Shown here one piece after another: positions 7,362-20,776 of a DNA stretch of 24,919 bases (position 1 is the first letter of the stretch; each line of letters opens with the position of its first letter). Below the pieces are notes generated by a model that was not told where the DNA came from, made no database searches, and worked only from the letters and a program-made list of their open reading frames with translations. The stretch comes from a virus. The stretch covers positions 1 through 24,919 of IMG/VR virus record IMGVR_UViG_3300031999_000180. One strand, written 5' to 3'. Position numbers and translations under genes: made by a program.

Positions 7362-8236
7362 TATTTCTTAATCTCATCAGAAATTGTTTTATTGAAAGCA
7401 TTCAATATTTTAGACGCATTATCATGCATCTCTGAAAACGCCGCAATCTTCGATAATGCCAAATAAAATTCAACTGACGGTTGAAGAACTTCAGCTTCCG
7501 GATTTACCTTCATGGAAGACAATTTTGTAAATTCAGAATTTACATTGAACCCGTTATCAGACAATTCTTTTTGAATTTGTTCATAAGCCATGGCTATCTT
7601 TGTAAAATCACCACCCATGTCCTTTATATTTCTTGAAGCTAATTTCGCAAGATCGCCGATGGAATCACCCTTTGCGACAATGATTTTTGCATCATGTTTC
7701 ATTCTTTCAAAAGCTTCTTCAGCCAGTTTCTCTTCAGAACATTTCATCATCGCCAGCTTATCAACAAAGTTTTTCATCACATCCCTGTTTTGAATGAATT
7801 CATGAAGTTCGGCTTGTTTTTCAACTGATTTTGCCGAATTTAACATATCATCACCCTGCTCATCCGACGTTTCATTATAACGTTCCGGAATAGCAGCGTC
7901 TCTGATTAAACTTGAATTTTTACTTCTGAAATCAGTAGGCGGTATTTTTAGATCATTCATGGCTAACTCACTTTCCCTTATTATTGGGATTATTTGATTA
8001 AATTCAGCAAGATCAAAGGTAATATTTGCTTTATTAATAGAAGGGTCATTGAATAATCCAAGATAAACATTTTGATTTGCGTGCTCACAAATCCTTTTTA
8101 ATATCTCTTCATTTCCGATTTCACCACCAAGATAGGCCTCGACGATCGAGTTGTTCATATTTTTTCCGAATAATAGATAATCTTCGGAAACCCTATGAGC
8201 AACATTTTTAATCGACTGAATCAATTCGTCGGGCAT
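7361..8236 (-). CDS. Helical protein rich in the Lys-x-Ala motif, 291 residues
   Basis: The gene is coupled at both ends by TAATG overlaps. The protein is mainly helical and charged, with no membrane segment. It contains at least six copies of a hydrophobic/acidic-x-Lys-x-Ala pattern (VEKQAE, VDKLAM, EEKLAE, LAKLAS, FTKIAM, LSKIAA). Such density resembles the scaffold-like product at 2481-3350. A structural or core role is plausible; I do not recognise a family. Confidence 0.65.
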   Translation of the reverse strand: MPDELIQSIKNVAHRVSEDYLLFGKNMNNSIVEAYLGGEIGNEEILKRICEHANQNVYLGLFNDPSINKANITFDLAEFNQIIPIIRESELAMNDLKIPPTDFRSKNSSLIRDAAIPERYNETSDEQGDDMLNSAKSVEKQAELHEFIQNRDVMKNFVDKLAMMKCSEEKLAEEAFERMKHDAKIIVAKGDSIGDLAKLASRNIKDMGGDFTKIAMAYEQIQKELSDNGFNVNSEFTKLSSMKVNPEAEVLQPSVEFYLALSKIAAFSEMHDNASKILNAFNKTISDEIKK

Positions 8237-11405: not shown

Positions 11406-13052
11406 TTAATCCGGATCTTCATTGACTCCGCCGGATAAATATCTATTATACTCACCTCTTAATATACCTGCTGCAATTCGAGAAAACATCCATGAATGAA
11501 AACAGTCGTCAGGTACTATATGGTCGTACATCATAAGCCTCGTTCTCTCACTATACTCGCTATATATTCCTGTAAAATCCGGTTGATATTCTTTAAACTG
11601 TTCATAGTTAAAAAAAGCGACATCGGTACGTTTGATATTCATAATTACGTCCGTGATAACACGGGTCCTATTCATTATATAATGACCCTTTTCCTTATCC
11701 CAGCGTAATTTTTTTCTGATTGTTCCATGTTCGTATATTTCAGCAAAATGAAGGGCCCCGAGGGTTTCTACCATCATAGCATTGGATGTTCGTCCATCAC
11801 CAGTATCAGCTATGGTAAGTTTTGCATTAAATTGATGAATTATCCTCAGCATGTCTTTGATCTGAATGAGAGGATCTGACATCTTTCCGGTGTATTTTTT
11901 TACGAATACGGTCTTAAATTTATTCCGTATTACAGCGCTTATTGTTAATACGGAATACGATGTCCCCGATGCTGTATCACCCTTTCCCCAATCCACCCCA
12001 GCCGTAATAATGTCAACACCTTGCAACATATCATGATATTGACCTATATCCTCGGGAATCATCTCATAATTTTCACAGCACGCTATTAATTCCGGAACCG
12101 ATATCGGATGCCTTGCATTGGCATAAGGGAGCGCCAAAACCTCATTATAGAATCTCTCCGATGAATAAATTTGCCTTGTATTTGTGACACTTATCTTCCA
12201 AACTTCGGGATTATTAATATTATTTATCCATGGTAATACTATCTGTGGTAGCCGATACCCATCGATAAACCCACCCTTATTCATCGTAACCCATTGACCG
12301 TTCTCATAATAAATAGGCTTCTTACATTTATTACATACAAGGCATGTCGCGCCAACATTTTCTTCATTTATGCAATTGTATTTACCACATCCGACATTCT
12401 TACATTTAATAACCCACTCGTTCATCGTGCTCTTATCCCAATACCGCTCCATCGTATTTTCAATGGTTTTGGGTGTTCCTGCATATATTCTACAGTTGAA
12501 TAAATGCATGGGGAGGGTAGGGAAACGTTCTTTGAGATGCTCCCACTTCGCCAGACTATGACTCATGCATTGTTCGATGACCGGTATATGATCGCTGCAA
12601 ATATCCTGAATCTCATCAATGCAGGTCTGATCTCCCGATATACCGCGGATGGAATCGGCGGTATGGAAAGCCGATCTCAGATAAATCTTACTACCGTTAT
12701 TGAATTCTTTATACGATATCTGATCTTTGGTTTTCGTGTCAAAATAATTATCCTTGATAACCATTGATCCTTTAAGGGCACCATCAAGCTTATCGGTAGA
12801 AAATACCGATACTTGTCCACCAGTCGGGGCTACATAAATAGAATGATAGTTCTCGTATTTAAGGCACGGAAGAGCTGTTTTAAAACCCACCGTGGTTGAT
12901 TTGTGTGTCTGCCGGCCGAACTTTAATATGATAGCGTTAGATGGTCTATTATAGATCGGGTACAAATGCCGCATGGTATGGTATGGCATTGAGAGCGGAG
13001 CGCCATCCAAATAAAAGATATTGCTCGCGAATTGTACCGGTGTAACATTCAT
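11406..13052 (-). CDS. terL: Terminase large subunit (packaging ATPase and nuclease)
   Basis: A 548-residue protein. The ATPase part has a Walker A-like loop GRQTHKST (46-53, of the deviant terminase type), Walker B C-I-D-E-I-Q-D (144-150) and a coupling-motif-like A-G-T-P (191-194). A Cys-rich insertion (C217, C222, C227, C237, C240, C243) looks like a zinc ribbon between the ATPase and nuclease parts. The nuclease part shows the expected acidic residues: D354 (GVDWGKGD), D416 (IADTGDG) and D515/D516 (HIVPDDCFHSW). It would translocate DNA into proheads and cut the concatemer. The ATG overlaps the stop of the upstream gene in TAATG form. Confident as terminase; the zinc ribbon is the unusual part. 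Confidence 0.9.
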   Translation of the reverse strand: MNVTPVQFASNIFYLDGAPLSMPYHTMRHLYPIYNRPSNAIILKFGRQTHKSTTVGFKTALPCLKYENYHSIYVAPTGGQVSVFSTDKLDGALKGSMVIKDNYFDTKTKDQISYKEFNNGSKIYLRSAFHTADSIRGISGDQTCIDEIQDICSDHIPVIEQCMSHSLAKWEHLKERFPTLPMHLFNCRIYAGTPKTIENTMERYWDKSTMNEWVIKCKNVGCGKYNCINEENVGATCLVCNKCKKPIYYENGQWVTMNKGGFIDGYRLPQIVLPWINNINNPEVWKISVTNTRQIYSSERFYNEVLALPYANARHPISVPELIACCENYEMIPEDIGQYHDMLQGVDIITAGVDWGKGDTASGTSYSVLTISAVIRNKFKTVFVKKYTGKMSDPLIQIKDMLRIIHQFNAKLTIADTGDGRTSNAMMVETLGALHFAEIYEHGTIRKKLRWDKEKGHYIMNRTRVITDVIMNIKRTDVAFFNYEQFKEYQPDFTGIYSEYSERTRLMMYDHIVPDDCFHSWMFSRIAAGILRGEYNRYLSGGVNEDPD

Positions 13053-14249: not shown

Positions 14250-15008
14250 ATGCCACCTAACCCAAAACAAACTTCAGAACTTGGAAAAAAGCTTGTTGCA
14301 CTTGCAAAAAAAGTTGCACCTTACGCTGCAACAATAGGGGCAGGAACAGTAGGTGGAGTCGGCGGTTACCATCTTGGAAAAGCTGTTGAAAGACGTAATG
14401 ATACCAATGAAGATAGGCAAATAGCTGAACAATTTTACAATTTAGGTGAAAGGGACGCTTTTATGAAAACTTCGGAGTTGATTAACACAATTTATGAACA
14501 GGCGTTTACGGATGAGATGGAAAAGGTCGGGGCTGGTAAATCAGCAAAAGGAATTCTTTCCTTTGCGCGTCCTATTCTCGAAAAACTTCGTATCATGAAA
14601 CCAAAGCAAACACATTTTGAACGAATAAAAGGTAAAACCAAAGAGGTTGCCGAGAAGGCTTGGGGTGCTACAAGGGGTGGAGCCGAGAAAGCCTGGGGTG
14701 CTACAAGGGGTGGAGCCGAGAAAGCCTGGGGCGCTACAAAGGGTGGGGCTGAGAAAGCCTGGGGTGCCACGCGTGGTGGTGCCGAAGAAGCTTTTAATGC
14801 AACCAAGGGTTTTGGTGTTGATGTTGGCAAAGAATATGCCGCTGCCGGCAAAGCGATCGCGACAACTCCTACAAAATCGTTTGGTCTTGCCGGACAACAT
14901 CTTTTGAATATCATCAGAACAAATCCCAAAGCTTCTGCTATTACAGGGGGAGCTGCTGTAGCCGCTGGAACAACTGGTGTTGCCCTTGGAATGAGAAAGA
15001 AAAGCTAA
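14250..15008 (+). CDS. Glycine-zipper protein with five 11-residue repeats
   Basis: A 252-residue protein; AAGGA lies six bases before the ATG. A glycine-rich hydrophobic segment occurs near the N-terminus (about residues 24-43, YAATIGAGTVGGVGGYHLG) and another at the C-terminus (about 225-247, AITGGAAVAAGTTGVALGM). Residues 73-98 contain the same tag-like segment as the N-termini of the two following proteins (SELINTIYEQAFTDEMEKVG). Residues 134-188 are five tandem 11-residue repeats, four of them AEKAWGATRGG-like, forming an amphipathic helix of the kind seen in LEA and apolipoprotein-like membrane binders. A membrane-active virion or ejection protein is a reasonable guess; the family is not recognised. 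Confidence 0.7.
   Translation: MPPNPKQTSELGKKLVALAKKVAPYAATIGAGTVGGVGGYHLGKAVERRNDTNEDRQIAEQFYNLGERDAFMKTSELINTIYEQAFTDEMEKVGAGKSAKGILSFARPILEKLRIMKPKQTHFERIKGKTKEVAEKAWGATRGGAEKAWGATRGGAEKAWGATKGGAEKAWGATRGGAEEAFNATKGFGVDVGKEYAAAGKAIATTPTKSFGLAGQHLLNIIRTNPKASAITGGAAVAAGTTGVALGMRKKS
14649..14813 (+). repeat. Five tandem 33-base coding repeats
   Basis: Units begin at 14649, 14682, 14715, 14748 and 14781. The first three are nearly identical, the fourth is more diverged and the fifth is degenerate (AEEAFNATKGF). Each unit encodes 11 residues, so copy-number changes would keep the frame. The open opposite-strand frames here are an artefact of the repeat. Confidence 0.85.
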
Positions 15009-15020
15009 TAGTTATAAATA

Positions 15021-15055
15021 ATCTTGGGCTGTACAATCAGCCCAAGATATTTTAT
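15021..15055 (+). terminator. Intergenic hairpin, attenuator or terminator
   Basis: A perfect 11-base-pair stem (15021-15031 with 15038-15048) with a six-base loop is followed by ATTTTATAATAA. The T-run is imperfect, so it may only partly terminate transcription between the 14250 and 15073 genes, or stabilise the 3' end of the first message. Confidence 0.6.
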
Positions 15056-15072
15056 AATAAACAGAGGATTTT

Positions 15073-15726
15073 ATGAATCAACAAGAGTTGTTGGAAAATG
15101 TTTATACCAAAGCGTTTGATGACGAATTATCTAAAATTGCAGCTGGAGGCAAGGTATTAAAAGGCACCTTTGGCGCTGTAAAAAGGGGTGTTAAGGCAAC
15201 TAAAGAATTCGTACAAAATGTCGCTAAACCAGAATCAAATGAATACACAAAACTCTTTCGTGGACCTGGAGAAGCGGCGACTTCAAATGCTGGTGCTGCT
15301 GGGGCAAATCTTGGGAAGAAAATACGAGCAACTACCGCAAATGTAAAACAAAAAGTAAAGCCTAAAGTACAAAAAGCACAAAGGGCGGCGAAAGGTTTTG
15401 TTGAAACATTTAAGCCGGAAATAAATCAGGCTAAAGGATATATTAAAAAACAACTTGATGAATTTGGAAGAAGTGCTGCGCAAGGGGCTCAAACAAGGGC
15501 TGGCGAATTTGCTGGAAAACAAGCCGGTAAATTAGAAAAAGTCAAGGAAACAATGAGGGCTGGATTCAGAGAACCTCCCCCTCCTCCGCCAGCACCCGCA
15601 CTCGCTGCACCTGCCACACAGCCAAGACGAATGAATCCTATGCATATAGCCGCAGGTGTTGGTGGTGCCGGTTTTGGTATGGCTGGTGGAGCTTATGCGG
15701 CATCAAAGATGACCCAAAGGAGATAA
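15073..15726 (+). CDS. Tagged basic protein with C-terminal glycine zipper
   Basis: A 217-residue protein starting MNQQELLENVYTKAFDDELS and continuing K-I-A-A-G-G, with AGAGGA upstream. The N-terminal motif matches the 15735 product (MNKTELLQNIYNQAFDEEVE) and an internal segment of the 14250 product. The middle is Lys/Ala/Gln-rich and helical (about residues 30-170), then a Pro-rich linker with six consecutive Pro, then a glycine/alanine hydrophobic segment (about 190-212). It is a paralog-type sibling of its neighbours and of the minus-strand 8236-8835 product. Function is unknown; DNA- or membrane-binding fits the composition. Confidence 0.7.
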   Translation: MNQQELLENVYTKAFDDELSKIAAGGKVLKGTFGAVKRGVKATKEFVQNVAKPESNEYTKLFRGPGEAATSNAGAAGANLGKKIRATTANVKQKVKPKVQKAQRAAKGFVETFKPEINQAKGYIKKQLDEFGRSAAQGAQTRAGEFAGKQAGKLEKVKETMRAGFREPPPPPPAPALAAPATQPRRMNPMHIAAGVGGAGFGMAGGAYAASKMTQRR

Positions 15727-15734
15727 TCCAAATT

Positions 15735-16061
15735 ATGAATAAAACAGAATTACTTCAAAATATTTATAACCAAGCATTCGATGAAGAGGTTGAAAAAAAT
15801 GCCGGTTGGATGGGGGCTGCTTGGAAAGGTGTGTCTGGTCTTGCTAAAGGTTTGGGTGGAGCTGCTAAAAGTTTCGGACAATCTTTTGGAAAAGATCTTG
15901 GTGATAAAACACGTGGGAAGATGCTTAGACAAGCCGGTGAACAATTTAAATCTACCATCAAAGCGCATCCTGTTACGGCTGGTGTCGTTGGCGGTGTTGG
16001 AGCGCTTGGGACCGGAGCCGGAGCTATTTCGGCAATAAGAGGCCCGAAAGAAAAATACTAA
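15735..16061 (+). CDS. Tagged small protein with C-terminal glycine zipper, 108 residues
   Basis: The SD AAGGAG overlaps the end of the previous gene, nine bases before the ATG. The N-terminal 25 residues closely match the 15073 product and carry EVEKNAG at residues 18-24. A glycine/lysine-rich middle leads to a hydrophobic glycine-rich segment (about residues 78-100, TAGVVGGVGALGTGAGAISA). Its stop overlaps the next start (TAATG). It looks like a shortened paralog of the previous gene. Function is unknown. Confidence 0.7.
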   Translation: MNKTELLQNIYNQAFDEEVEKNAGWMGAAWKGVSGLAKGLGGAAKSFGQSFGKDLGDKTRGKMLRQAGEQFKSTIKAHPVTAGVVGGVGALGTGAGAISAIRGPKEKY

Positions 16062-16402: not shown

Positions 16403-16432
16403 TGTTATTTTATATTTGTTTTGTGTAATAAC
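16402..16432 (+). promoter_or_regulatory. Promoter for the DHH-RT-RNase H cassette
   Basis: GTGTTA (16402-16407), a 19-base spacer and AATAAC (16427-16432). The 13-mer ATAACAATATTGA at 16428-16440 recurs exactly at 24796-24808, where an ATGTTA box lies at nearly the same distance upstream. This marks a phage promoter type. Confidence 0.5.
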
Positions 16433-16472
16433 AATATTGAGTAGAGTTTTTAACTACCAATAAAGGAGTGTT

Positions 16473-17573
16473 ATGGGTGGCGCATATCATCTTTTTTTTC
16501 ATGATGATGTTGATGGAATAATAGGAGCATCCCTATTTCTTAAAAATCATATTAAGGAAAAATATCGCCTCTATCCGGTATCATCGTCATGGAGGGGTGA
16601 TAAATTTAATGAATTAATCTCAAGTTTGTTTATAAAACCGGGCGATAAAAAGGTAATCATAGATTACCAATACCATCCCAAATGCGATATTTGGATCGAT
16701 CATCATTTTAATGAAACATTCGGCGAATGTGAAATTAAAAATTCTAAAATGATTTATAACCCCAAAAGTCAATCTGCTACACGATTGGTTTTTGATTATG
16801 GATTAATGGTTAACGGTGTTGATCGCGTCGATTATGATACATCATTTCTTTATCAAGTCGACATTATCGATTCAGGATCTTATAAAAGTGTTGAGCAAAT
16901 ATTCAAGGATAAAAATCCTACAATGATTCTAAGGGCATTCCTTGAAAGGATGTTTCCCGCCGATATGACTTATTGTAGAATAGTTGAATTAATAGCCAAA
17001 AACAATATGAGCATTAAAGACGCTTTGTGGATTTTGCGAATAAGCGCATATCATGTAAAAGAACTTGAACAAGAGGCTATGAAAATTAAGGATGCCGCCA
17101 TTATTTCGAATAAAATATCTATTGTCAATCAAAGACGGAAAAATCAATTTCCAAGATATGCGGAATATTTAGCGTTGCCTGAAATAAAATATTCAATCAG
17201 ATTAACGAATGTAGGAAATAATAATATTTATTTTCAGCTTGGTTTTAATGATTGGCAAAAGGAAGCTAATGATATCAACATCGGGAAAAAAATATCTGAG
17301 CTTCAAGGGTCGATTATAACATCCGGTGGAGGTCATTATAACGTGGCGGCCGGAATGATGAAAAGCGAAATGGAGAACACATTCATCGATGAGATTACAA
17401 AAATATTAAACCATGAGGAGGTTGACATGGAAAAGTATGCTGTTGATTCAACAGACCCGATCGAAAAGAAAGCTAAGGAAATGATCAAGACCGGATCCGC
17501 CGCTACCATTGCGGATGCGAGAGAAAAAGCGTCCAAAACGGAGGAAAAAAATGACGGATCAGCCGAACAGTAA
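16473..17573 (+). CDS. DHH/DHHA1-family phosphoesterase (RecJ- or nanoRNase-like)
   Basis: A 366-residue protein; AAAGGAG lies four bases before the ATG. Metal-binding motifs of the DHH family are all visible: H10-x-D12-x-D14-G, D64 (IIDYQ), D76-H77-H78 and D130/D133 (VDIIDSG). The DHHA1 substrate-binding motif G285-G-G-H288 is intact. Members are 5'-3' single-strand exonucleases (RecJ), nanoRNases (NrnA) or cyclic dinucleotide phosphodiesterases; the size favours NrnA-like over full RecJ. About 48 residues after the DHHA1 domain form a Lys/Glu/Ala tail that may also be made separately. The gene overlaps the RT gene by 23 bases, so they are likely co-expressed; trimming RNA or DNA made by the RT is a possible role (inference). 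Confidence 0.85.
   Translation: MGGAYHLFFHDDVDGIIGASLFLKNHIKEKYRLYPVSSSWRGDKFNELISSLFIKPGDKKVIIDYQYHPKCDIWIDHHFNETFGECEIKNSKMIYNPKSQSATRLVFDYGLMVNGVDRVDYDTSFLYQVDIIDSGSYKSVEQIFKDKNPTMILRAFLERMFPADMTYCRIVELIAKNNMSIKDALWILRISAYHVKELEQEAMKIKDAAIISNKISIVNQRRKNQFPRYAEYLALPEIKYSIRLTNVGNNNIYFQLGFNDWQKEANDINIGKKISELQGSIITSGGGHYNVAAGMMKSEMENTFIDEITKILNHEEVDMEKYAVDSTDPIEKKAKEMIKTGSAATIADAREKASKTEEKNDGSAEQ
17427..17573 (+). CDS. Possible in-frame internal translation product of the DHH gene
   Basis: Inside the DHH gene, in frame, GAGGAGG ends five bases before an ATG at 17427 (Met319), a stronger SD than that of many genes here. Initiation would give a free 48-residue charged peptide beginning MEKYAVDSTDPIEKKAKEMI. 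The segment lies outside the DHH and DHHA1 domains and carries the cluster's Lys-x-Ala motifs. Whether it is used cannot be told from sequence alone; it could also be a former separate gene fused by loss of a stop. Confidence 0.35.
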   Translation: MEKYAVDSTDPIEKKAKEMIKTGSAATIADAREKASKTEEKNDGSAEQ

Positions 17574-18609
17574 TTTCAACTTCAAAAGAATTTTTGGAAT
17601 GACGTTGGATGAAATAGATTGTGTTTTATCCGATAAAGAAAAATTTATCAAGCATTTTGAAATTCCAAAAAAAGACGGAACGAAACGCACTATCATAGCG
17701 CCGATATCGAAATTAAAACATATTCAAAAACTGATTTATTTCAAATTTCTGAAAAAATACAGATGCCATCCGGCCGTGCATGGTTTTGTTCCCAAGAGAG
17801 GGATAGTAACAAATGCCGCAATGCATATTGGGGCAAGATCTCTTGGAAAAATCGATGTCAGTAAATTTTTCGATTCAGTATCGGTTAATCATTTAAAGAA
17901 TTGCCTGTTCGGTAATAAGAATATTTGCCGATATTGTAAAAATTATGAACGTATGATGGATGGAAAGTGCAATCCATCGCTATACAAAAATAAATTACAA
18001 AAATTTGATTATCGTTGTGAAGAAATTAAGGCGGTATTTATTCCTGATTATTGTGAAAAGACAGGATATAAATCACTATTTTTGAGAGTAATGGATGCAT
18101 CAACTTATAATGGATTTGCGGCGCAGGGATTCCCGACATCACCAATGCTCGCAAATTTATCCATGAGGGGTTTTGATAAAATAATGAGTGAACACTGTGA
18201 AAGTCTTGGTATAACATATACCCGATACGCGGACGATCTCACATTCAGCAGTAAGACAATGACATCTTCTGAATTAATGGGAAGTGTTAAACAAAAAGCC
18301 TATCGGCTATTGTGGGCTTTTAATTTTCAACCCAAAAGGGAAAAGACTAAATTTAGAGGCAAGGGGGCAAGATTAAAAACTTGCGGGGTTGTCGTAAATG
18401 TCAAAACAAATATTGAAAGAAAAGCATTGATGCTGTTCAGAGCAAAGGTGCATCATGCTATTAATAAATATCCTGATAGAACCACCAAATCCAGAATCAG
18501 ATCGTTAAAAGGATTTGCGTCGTTTGTGATGTCGATTAATGAAGAGCAAGGTAAAAAATATATGAATCAACTGGTCGAATTTGAAAAACAAAAATTCGGA
18601 TCAGAATGA
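17551..18609 (+). CDS. Retron-like reverse transcriptase
   Basis: The start at 17551 is supported by GGAGG six to seven bases upstream. The 352-residue protein has RT motifs in order: I-P-K-K-D-G-T-K-R (38-46), the retron-type NAxxH box N88-A-A-M-H92, catalytic D102 (KIDVSKFF), Q192-G-F-P-T-S-P, the active site Y226-A-D-D229, and a thumb K-T-C-G-V-V-V-N (276-283) where retrons have the VTG motif. QGxPTSP rather than the SQ form excludes a diversity-generating retroelement RT; there is no maturase or endonuclease domain. Between motifs 3 and 4 a Cys-rich stretch (C126, C129, C140, C156, C168) looks like a zinc-binding insertion. The gene overlaps the DHH gene upstream and RNase H downstream, leaving no upstream space for an msr-msd RNA. 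Confidence 0.88.
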   Translation: MTDQPNSNFNFKRIFGMTLDEIDCVLSDKEKFIKHFEIPKKDGTKRTIIAPISKLKHIQKLIYFKFLKKYRCHPAVHGFVPKRGIVTNAAMHIGARSLGKIDVSKFFDSVSVNHLKNCLFGNKNICRYCKNYERMMDGKCNPSLYKNKLQKFDYRCEEIKAVFIPDYCEKTGYKSLFLRVMDASTYNGFAAQGFPTSPMLANLSMRGFDKIMSEHCESLGITYTRYADDLTFSSKTMTSSELMGSVKQKAYRLLWAFNFQPKREKTKFRGKGARLKTCGVVVNVKTNIERKALMLFRAKVHHAINKYPDRTTKSRIRSLKGFASFVMSINEEQGKKYMNQLVEFEKQKFGSE

Positions 18610-19076
18610 TGGAATATACGATATATACCGATGGTGGATGCAGTGGAAATAAAAGAGATTCCGGATGTAAAGGTGCTTGGGCATATGTTATCTTGGATCC
18701 CGCTAAAAATATGGTTTATCAAGACGTGAGTGGAGAAGAAAATACCACTAATAACAGAATGGAATTGATGGCTGTAATACGCGGGCTTGGCACATGTTGC
18801 TGTTTTGACCGGACAATAAAACACGAATGTATTGTATTAACTGATTCTAAATATGTTGCAGATAATTATAATGATTATTTGCAAGAATGGAAAAAAAATG
18901 GTTGGAGAAAATCAAATGGAGGACAGGTTTTAAATTTTGATCTTTGGAAAGAACTGAACTTGTTAATCCCCGAGTTCAAGTCAGTTAAGATCAAATGGGT
19001 CAAGGGGCACGCTATTAATGTATACAATCAAATAGCTGACTCCCTGGTGAGATCCGTCCTTTATCCAACTAAATGA
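18606..19076 (+). CDS. rnhA: RNase HI
   Basis: A 156-residue protein whose ATG overlaps the RT stop (ATGA); a second ATG at 18609 is equally possible. All type I RNase H residues are visible: D9 (YTDGG), E53 (TNNRMEL), D80 (LTDSKYV), H135 (VKGHA) and D145 (NQIADSL), plus the W-x-K-N-G-W-R block of the substrate-binding handle. It degrades the RNA strand of RNA-DNA hybrids. Coupling to the RT implies they act on the same hybrid: retrons normally borrow the host RNase H, whereas here the phage supplies its own. A replication role (primer removal) is the alternative. Confidence 0.93.
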   Translation: MMEYTIYTDGGCSGNKRDSGCKGAWAYVILDPAKNMVYQDVSGEENTTNNRMELMAVIRGLGTCCCFDRTIKHECIVLTDSKYVADNYNDYLQEWKKNGWRKSNGGQVLNFDLWKELNLLIPEFKSVKIKWVKGHAINVYNQIADSLVRSVLYPTK

Positions 19077-19088
19077 AAGGGGTTTGTT

Positions 19089-19211
19089 ATGAATCAACAA
19101 CCACCAGTATCAGAAACAATCGGCCCGATTATCGACGCCGTATCAAATTTTGTGAAAATAATAATTTCACAAACTGAAATTTTAATAAATAAAATTGTGT
19201 CAGGAAAATAG
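19089..19211 (+). CDS. Small ORF, 40 residues
   Basis: AAAGGGG lies six bases before the ATG, 13 bases after the RNase H stop, so it is probably co-transcribed. The peptide (begins MNQQPPVSETIGPIIDAVSN) has a Pro/polar start and an amphipathic helix with I-I-I-S-Q-T-E-I-L-I-N. It could be a small accessory or membrane-associated peptide; no family is recognised. The folded GC-rich region begins about 10 bases after the stop. Confidence 0.55.
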   Translation: MNQQPPVSETIGPIIDAVSNFVKIIISQTEILINKIVSGK

Positions 19212-19292
19212 ATAAAGCAGAAGGAGAGATTATTATCTCAACCGTCGTGTTTCGCGACGGATGATCCAAAAGTCGGTAGGCGCTCGCCTTTC

Positions 19293-19333
19293 CCTTTCTG
19301 AGGCTTCGCGCATCAATCTACCGCTTGGTCCAT
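19293..19333 (+). repeat. 41-base direct repeat, copy 1
   Basis: Identical to 20686-20726 across 41 bases (starts CCTTTCTGAGGCTTCGCGCA). In this copy the repeat continues into the long hairpin at 19323-19365. Further on, a block around GATTCGACC (19435-19457) also has a counterpart after copy 2. Confidence 0.9.
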
Positions 19334-19426
19334 AACCCGCATCCGCGGGTTATGGCGGACCAAGCTGGGGTGAGCCCCGCTTGGCCCCCGACCCCAATCG
19401 GGATCTGTCTGTTTTATCTAACCATG

Positions 19427-19457
19427 ATCTCCCTGATTCGACCAGGGAGATTTTGTT
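19427..19457 (+). terminator. Terminator-like hairpin at the end of the folded region
   Basis: A perfect 9-base-pair stem (19427-19435 with 19443-19451), a seven-base loop ATTCGAC and TTTTGTT after it. It could end the RT-cassette transcript. The T-run is short. Confidence 0.55.
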
Positions 19458-19482
19458 AAACATTTATTAATAAGGAATTTAT

Positions 19483-20343
19483 ATGAAAAATATTTTTAAT
19501 AAAAATTGTTGTGATGGTATTTATAATTCATTCGACGTTCATTTTACAAGTTTATGTGATAATAAATGCAAACATTGCATTGATTTGAAATATAAAGGAT
19601 TAGGGGTTAATAAACCAAATGTTTCAGCGATAATAAATACTATTATTAAAAATCAAGACGGTTATGATGATATTTTATTTCTAGGTGGGGAGCCTTGTAT
19701 TTATCTTGATGAATTAATTCATTGTATACAAGAAATTAAACATCAAACAAATCTTAAAGTGTTTATAACAACATCTGTTCCAAAAATATGCAATGATAAG
19801 TATGATTTATTTATATGTTTATTAAATTTATGTGATGGAATCAATTTATCAGTTCAACATTATAAAGAAAAAATTGCTGATAAAATTCGAGAGACTTCTT
19901 CAAAATATGATAGACAAAAATTTTATAATTCTTTACCGTATAAAGAAAAAATTAGAATTAATTTAAATGTATTAAAACCATATTTGTATATAAAAGAAGA
20001 TATTATAAATTGTTTAATACATTATGATAATATGAAATTTAATGAAATAAAAGTTTCAGAAATACAACATGGAAAAGATAATTTTATTTCTTTTGAAAAA
20101 ATATTTAATATTAAACTTAAATCTCCATTTTTTTATGGATGCCAAACATATTTAAATATGAATAAAATAATTACAAATTTTAAAACACCGTTATTATTAA
20201 AAAGATCGTGTTTTTTATGTGAAAGAACACTGAGGGCTTCTTATATTGATGGTGTTAAAGTATTTTATAAATTATTAAAACCAAGTATAAATAAATATGG
20301 TGTAATTTACGAAGATGGTCGTTTAGAAAAAGGATGGATATAA
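19483..20343 (+). CDS. Radical SAM enzyme
   Basis: A 286-residue protein; AAGGAA lies five bases before the ATG. The [4Fe-4S] motif C25-x3-C29-x2-C32 and the SAM-binding G68-G-E-P71 are both present and correctly spaced. A C-terminal Cys pair (SCFLCE, about residue 240) and a lone Cys before it could bind a second cluster, as in SPASM/twitch-type peptide-modifying enzymes, but the match is loose. The gene is far more AT-rich than the RT cassette, suggesting separate acquisition. A 27-codon His/Cys peptide gene starts three bases after its stop. Substrate unknown: a small peptide is attractive, a nucleobase or host protein equally open. Confidence 0.75.
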   Translation: MKNIFNKNCCDGIYNSFDVHFTSLCDNKCKHCIDLKYKGLGVNKPNVSAIINTIIKNQDGYDDILFLGGEPCIYLDELIHCIQEIKHQTNLKVFITTSVPKICNDKYDLFICLLNLCDGINLSVQHYKEKIADKIRETSSKYDRQKFYNSLPYKEKIRINLNVLKPYLYIKEDIINCLIHYDNMKFNEIKVSEIQHGKDNFISFEKIFNIKLKSPFFYGCQTYLNMNKIITNFKTPLLLKRSCFLCERTLRASYIDGVKVFYKLLKPSINKYGVIYEDGRLEKGWI

Positions 20344-20654: not shown

Positions 20655-20684
20655 ATGGCGAATCAAAAGATCCGCCATTTTTTT
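20655..20684 (+). terminator. Rho-independent terminator after the 20513 gene
   Basis: ATGGCG (20655-20660) pairs with CGCCAT (20673-20678), and inside it ATC with GAT across one mismatch, with an AAAA loop; six T follow (20679-20684). The second copy of the 41-base repeat begins two bases later. Confidence 0.85.
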
Positions 20685-20685
20685 A

Positions 20686-20726
20686 CCTTTCTGAGGCTTC
20701 GCGCATCAATCTACCGCTTGGTCCAT
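20686..20726 (+). repeat. 41-base direct repeat, copy 2
   Basis: Exact copy of 19293-19333. The roughly 95 bases of hairpins that follow copy 1 are missing here; the sequence jumps to a GATTCGACC block with a T-rich end (20728-20752), a diverged version of the block at 19435-19457. It lies between the terminator of the 20513 gene and the SD of the 20777 gene. Confidence 0.9.
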
Positions 20727-20776
20727 CCGATTCGACCGGGGGGATTTTATTATTATAATTTATTTTAGGAGAATGT

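Follow-up and report, generated by a model that had tools for sequence, protein, structure and literature searches.

A four-gene cassette and the structured RNA that follows it probably constitute a retron variant that one lineage of large tailed phages has fixed in its genome and that would make and process its own reverse-transcribed DNA (RT-DNA). The DNA analyzed, hereafter the window, is IMG/VR record IMGVR_UViG_3300031999_000180 at its full length (24,919 bp, positions 1–24,919), and carries on its plus strand, at 16473–19211, four consecutive or overlapping genes for a DHH-family protein, a reverse transcriptase (RT), a ribonuclease HI (RNase HI) and a small protein. A 212-nt RNA closed by a 13-bp stem, and then a terminator, lie 3′ of this run. 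The initial annotation had described the first three genes and a 40-residue ORF, all confirmed here, together with about 235 bases of folded sequence behind them; the strong fold stands, but its extent had to be corrected, as the RNA already starts at 19209 and the terminator is a separate element. Retrons defend bacteria against phages and depend on RNase H from the host; a copy fixed in a phage lineage together with processing enzymes of its own would show retrons serving a virus. The features of the locus are as follows.

16405–16434, plus strand: promoter-like motif of the operon, TTATTTT-N-TGTAATAACAA, found 5′ of the DHH gene in 10 of 16 loci
16473–17573, plus strand: DHH/DHHA1 phosphoesterase of the nanoRNase/RecJ superfamily
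17551–18609, plus strand: retron-type reverse transcriptase with a clade-specific Cys insert
18606–19076, plus strand: ribonuclease HI, from its profile match and the residues kept in relatives
19089–19211, plus strand: small conserved, fast-evolving protein of 40 aa
19209–19420, plus strand: structured RNA, proposed msr-msd, from folding, alignment, covariation and a covariance model
19209–19221, plus strand: a1 arm of the 13-bp closing stem
19223/19224, plus strand: candidate branching G just after a1, placed by the retron layout
19226–19239, plus strand: stem-loop 1 of the proposed msr
19242–19260, plus strand: stem-loop 2, an 8-bp stem with a UUU triloop, CCGUCGUG-UUU-CGCGACGG
19262–19407, plus strand: proposed msd (cDNA template), the extent of the cDNA being putative
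19408–19420, plus strand: a2 arm of the closing stem
19427–19458, plus strand: intrinsic terminator with a stem of about 10 bp and a loop containing CGACC, then TTTTGTT

The promoter-like motif is rare elsewhere in the 16 loci and does not occur between the RNase H gene and the RNA, so a single transcript carrying the RNA at its 3′ end is likely. The a1 arm of the RNA overlaps the stop codon of the 40-aa ORF. A radical SAM gene further downstream (19483–20343) was rejected as a cassette member, the relatives examined having no homologue at this place; it is confined to the window and its near copies, and weakly resembles prokaryotic viperins (PADLOC pVip, 6e-8; NCBIfam viperin, 8e-6, well under the cut-off). 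A tRNA search found none.

The RT belongs to the retron clade, and tree, profile and fold agree on this placement. It matches RVT_1 at 7e-19 and retron models at 1e-55 to 2e-64; the best PADLOC profile is that of retron type XIII (RT_XIII, 2e-64, 216 bits), although no other PADLOC retron component was found among the five window proteins scanned. Among NCBIfam models, retron St85 scores 1e-55 against 1e-12 for Drt2, and the best profile does not fall in the DRT, UG or Abi families. The closest PDB sequence is Ec86 (5e-43), the 15 best fold matches to the AlphaFold model are retron RTs (Z 16–21) with group II intron RTs next, and the RTs of the cassette form a monophyletic group (support 98/93). 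Both boxes on which the initial annotation had based its retron-like assignment, NAxxH (N88-A89-xx-H92) and YADD, are invariant across 15 aligned RTs. The cassette shares RT family, fold and NAxxH box with Retron-Eco1 (Ec86) and the St85, Ec78 and Ec67 families, but differs from them in having its own RNase HI and DHH enzyme, a Cys-rich RT insert, and xCG in place of VTG. The VTG box is a retron hallmark; at this position C278 is invariant and G279 nearly so in the 15 sequences. The insert, specific to the clade, lies between palm motifs, and its four invariant cysteines (Cys126, Cys129, Cys140 and Cys156) suggest a zinc site.

Downstream of the operon is a retron-like RNA with an a1/a2 inverted repeat. 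Its folding energy is −123 kcal/mol, compared with −75 ± 5 in shuffled sequences (z = −9.6), and the DNA complement of the msd folds strongly too (z −6.3). The RNA of Ec86 consists of an a1/a2 closing stem, a stem-loop, a UUU-triloop stem-loop and then the msd, and the cassette RNA follows the same order. RNAalifold, applied to a sequence-only alignment of 12 RNAs, recovered the closing stem, stem-loop 1 and stem-loop 2, with compensatory changes at 14 of 19 pairs and 48 compensatory cells, against 15.5 ± 3.2 in shuffled alignments and no more than 18 in slid controls. Stem-loop 2 shows compensatory changes in six of its eight pairs and is 94.8% paired; its triloop is most often UUU among relatives, the kind of loop recognized by Ec86-type RTs. 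Covariation was read from alignment A5, as the automatic a1/a2 finder takes terminator T-runs in some loci. A covariance model returned one RNA match per locus in 13 cassette loci and none in 44 control retron loci; 12 of the 13 make up its training set, and the independent one (L104) matches at E 2e-12. The full-length model misses the shorter RNAs of three loci (L035, L038 and L120), where only the plan of a1, stem and triloop persists. Within the msd, a near-invariant CCCCGACC core lies at about 19386–19393 and the rest varies in sequence, such that the MAFFT alignment is poor outside the core and no helix is claimed there. Rfam gave zero matches, even at E 1. The RNAs of the window and of a near-identical phage contig, L020, are separated by a single substitution and a few gap positions in the alignment.

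In the usual retron arrangement, the msr-msd lies upstream of the RT (PMC6868368). That layout is the common one but stands outside the strict definition of a retron. Here the ATG of the RT and its GGAGG site fall inside the last part of the DHH gene, which leaves no space for the RNA upstream. As a position control, the DNA within 400 nt of RT genes was searched for hairpins with a G-NNN-C triloop and a stem of 8 bp or more. At 126 other retron-type RT loci such a hairpin is found upstream in 67 and downstream in 9 (background, 5% of windows), whereas in the cassette clade it is downstream in 14 of 16 loci and upstream in one. A signature that is upstream elsewhere is thus downstream here, and the RNA is therefore the same kind of retron msr, relocated behind the operon. 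The proposal in the initial annotation of a phage retroelement with no room for its RNA upstream and the RNA downstream instead is supported on both counts, the retron-like msr being backed by the covariation and position controls. The cassette is retron-like in all computable features except the VTG box and the position of the RNA, which in the Ec86, St85, Ec78 and Ec67 families precedes the RT. The nearest other viral RTs also often carry the triloop stem upstream, unlike those of the cassette. Viral contigs of up to 210 kb (L039–L053) hold a second group of retron RTs, several with a triloop stem upstream. In the literature compared, outside which the main retron classification paper falls, neither a downstream retron RNA nor an RT-RNase H-DHH cassette was found. 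If the assignment is correct, retron RNAs can lie downstream and so escape tools that look for them upstream of RTs.

Some 22 further viral contigs contain the cassette, with RT identities of 37–99%. A scan with the single sequence found only two near-identical contigs, while one that used an alignment of phage RTs as its query delineated a distinct set at 38–66% identity, the next matches being at 31% or less. When 84,980 bacterial and archaeal genomes were scanned, the matches listed included no clade member (best 32%), and in INPHARED neither the RT (best about 25%) nor the DHH protein had a near relative. The order DHH-RT-RNase H is common to the relatives, with DHH present at every locus and RNase H at nearly every one, and the three genes and the downstream folded RNA recur together in related phages, the comparison that the initial annotation had proposed. 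At 141 other viral and bacterial RT loci, the RT never has a DHH or an RNase H gene beside it. RNase H was not found in two members (L035 and L036) and has lost catalytic residues in another (L033), while L037 has a degenerate DHH gene and no recognizable RNA; these parts are therefore dispensable in a few members, and the RT is the constant part. The family contigs are metagenomic and mostly incomplete. Retron-type RTs are likewise present in other phage and prophage genomes (P2-like, Pf and Staphylococcus jumbo phages), but these are only about 25% identical to the cassette RT, and those of P2-like and Pf phages adjoin a known retron effector gene.

Relatives were also sampled by their terminase, encoded in the window on the minus strand (11406–13052), to avoid choosing contigs by the RT. 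Members of the terminase family share at least 54% identity and all others at most 36%, a clean gap. Every one of the 21 family contigs long enough to include the locus has the DHH and RT genes, and 19 have RNase H; two further contigs stop inside the DHH gene. The cassette is absent from all 22 outgroup contigs with at least 7 kb upstream of the terminase, some of which are near-identical to each other. Gene order is shared: the terminase and a 347-aa gene lie on one strand, the other strand carries small genes followed by the cassette and RNA, and a conserved 737-aa gene comes next, again on the strand of the terminase. The cassette occupies a fixed place between the terminase genes and the 737-aa gene. 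In comparison with L020, the DHH, RT and RNase H genes have dN/dS ratios of about 0.02–0.12 (RT, dN 0.002 and dS 0.091; DHH, dN 0.001 and dS 0.068), which indicates strong purifying selection. Universal presence at one place and purifying selection together point to a vertically inherited function: the cassette is a core locus of the phage lineage, unlike the Ec86, St85, Ec78 and Ec67 retrons, and no passing defence island.

The assignment of the first protein is weak from its single sequence (DHHA1, 0.001), but the initial view of it as a DHH phosphoesterase gains support from domain matches in seven of 14 family members and from a predicted DHH/DHHA1 fold. This fold resembles PggH (Foldseek E 8e-16), NrnA and RecJ, from which the protein differs in its low identity (about 15%) and in being tied to an RT operon. 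Members of this superfamily act on short oligonucleotides or single-stranded DNA ends. The conserved C-terminal tail, from residue 320 or so, starts at an internal MEK (MEKYxVD) after a ribosome-binding-like GAGG, and may possibly also be made as a separate small protein. The RNase HI gene, likewise named at the outset, has a profile match of 2e-31 and the D-E-D-D residues in most relatives. The 40-aa protein has a hydrophobic/basic helix and is kept in most relatives, in most with its own ribosome-binding site. Its ORF (19089–19211) and the L020 counterpart (7539–7685) are diverged alleles with 61% identity between flanks of 98–99.5%, a swap between near-identical phages that may hint at a recombining or fast-evolving gene in conflict. 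A PADLOC scan of the cassette found no recognized retron effector; the DHH and small proteins are candidates for this role.

In known retrons, it is the RNase H1 of the host that clears away the template and determines the ends and length of the RT-DNA (PMC8989520). In the phage variant proposed here, one operon would run from a dedicated promoter to the terminator and carry the DHH, RT, RNase HI and small-protein genes and the 3′ msr-msd RNA. The RT would bind the msr stem-loops and prime from the G just after a1. Copying of the msd would begin at the a2 side and yield a single-stranded DNA, rich in hairpins and no longer than about 140 nt. Stripping of the template and setting of the end point would fall to the RNase HI of the phage, and the DHH enzyme could trim or recycle the RT-DNA product or the oligonucleotide remnants. 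The product would serve the phage's own cycle, in host take-over, counter-defence or replication, as opposed to an optional defence. Points against this reading are the xCG in place of VTG, the shorter RNAs that the full-length model misses, the loss of RNase H, of DHH integrity or of the RNA in a few members, and the lack of a recognized effector in the cassette. With moderate confidence we favor such an own-cycle function over accessory defence because of the fixed synteny in all informative family members. An RT-based system directed against host defence, the alternative of the initial annotation, is a further candidate. The fuller account, in which the retron belongs to the core genome of the whole large-phage lineage and its RT copies the 3′ RNA of the operon into a single-stranded DNA needed for host take-over, counter-defence, replication or packaging, with processing by the phage RNase H and DHH enzymes, is put forward tentatively. 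If it holds, the cassette would be a self-contained system for making RT-DNA, of use in basic research and in genome editing.

A weapon against other phages is a less likely reading, though one to be taken seriously: known retrons are tripartite defence systems, and in superinfection exclusion the RT-DNA would hold back the small protein or the DHH enzyme, which would become active upon infection by a competitor. The rapid evolution of the small ORF (61% between alleles whose flanks are 98–99% identical) and its hydrophobic/basic helix speak for this reading. Against it, defence genes are usually patchy, whereas all informative family members have this locus, at a single place; nor did the PADLOC scan find a known effector domain.

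Less probable still is a downstream RNA that is regulatory, serves packaging or forms the 3′-end structure of the mRNA, with the RT acting on something else. The RNA does sit at the 3′ end of the operon, adjoining the terminator and beside packaging genes, but it has the retron msr plan, with a triloop stem of the sort that other retron RTs typically have in the DNA before them, and it co-occurs with the cassette RT while being absent from control loci. A diversity-generating or mobile retroelement is very improbable and was rejected: 45 bp of the RNA are repeated at 20682–20726 and this second site varies among three near-identical phages, but the sole repeat of the RNA region in the window is noncoding, identical at 44 of 45 bases with no adenine-specific variable pattern, and followed by terminator sequence from beyond a2 (20729–20752), and the RT is retron-type, not DGR-type.

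In the window, 20682–20752 holds the 45-bp copy of 19289–19333 and a diverged copy of the terminator, behind another downstream terminator. The corresponding copy in L003 (8146–8225) is longer, has a different internal deletion and lies at the contig end, where an assembly error is possible, and L002 has an empty site at about 8150–8165 (TTTACCTTTC/TTAGGAGAATG). The second site is a polymorphic insertion that possibly arose by microhomology. A different situation is seen in IMGVR_UViG_3300027896_000001 (G004), which carries a single RT and has a second RNA on the minus strand at about 75.9–76.3 kb (L330), 25 kb from the cassette. It has the same stem-loop plan, a UUU triloop and a 21-bp hairpin (z −13.6; covariance model E 4e-4), and is a possible template in trans, such that in this one phage the same RT may serve a second RNA. 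Weak matches in four other genomes (G010, G016, G013 and G021; E 0.6 or worse) were discarded, having ordinary folding energies and lying mostly in protein-coding DNA, as was one in G014 that overlaps a tRNA-like gene.

Between the terminase and the cassette, several small plus-strand ORFs (14250, 15073 and 15735; window 14250–16061) share an LLxNIYxQAFDxEVEKxA-like motif, which might target virion proteins to the head or mark them for cleavage. Tandem 33-nt repeats at 14649–14789 encode repeated KAWGATRGGAE units within a 252-aa ORF.
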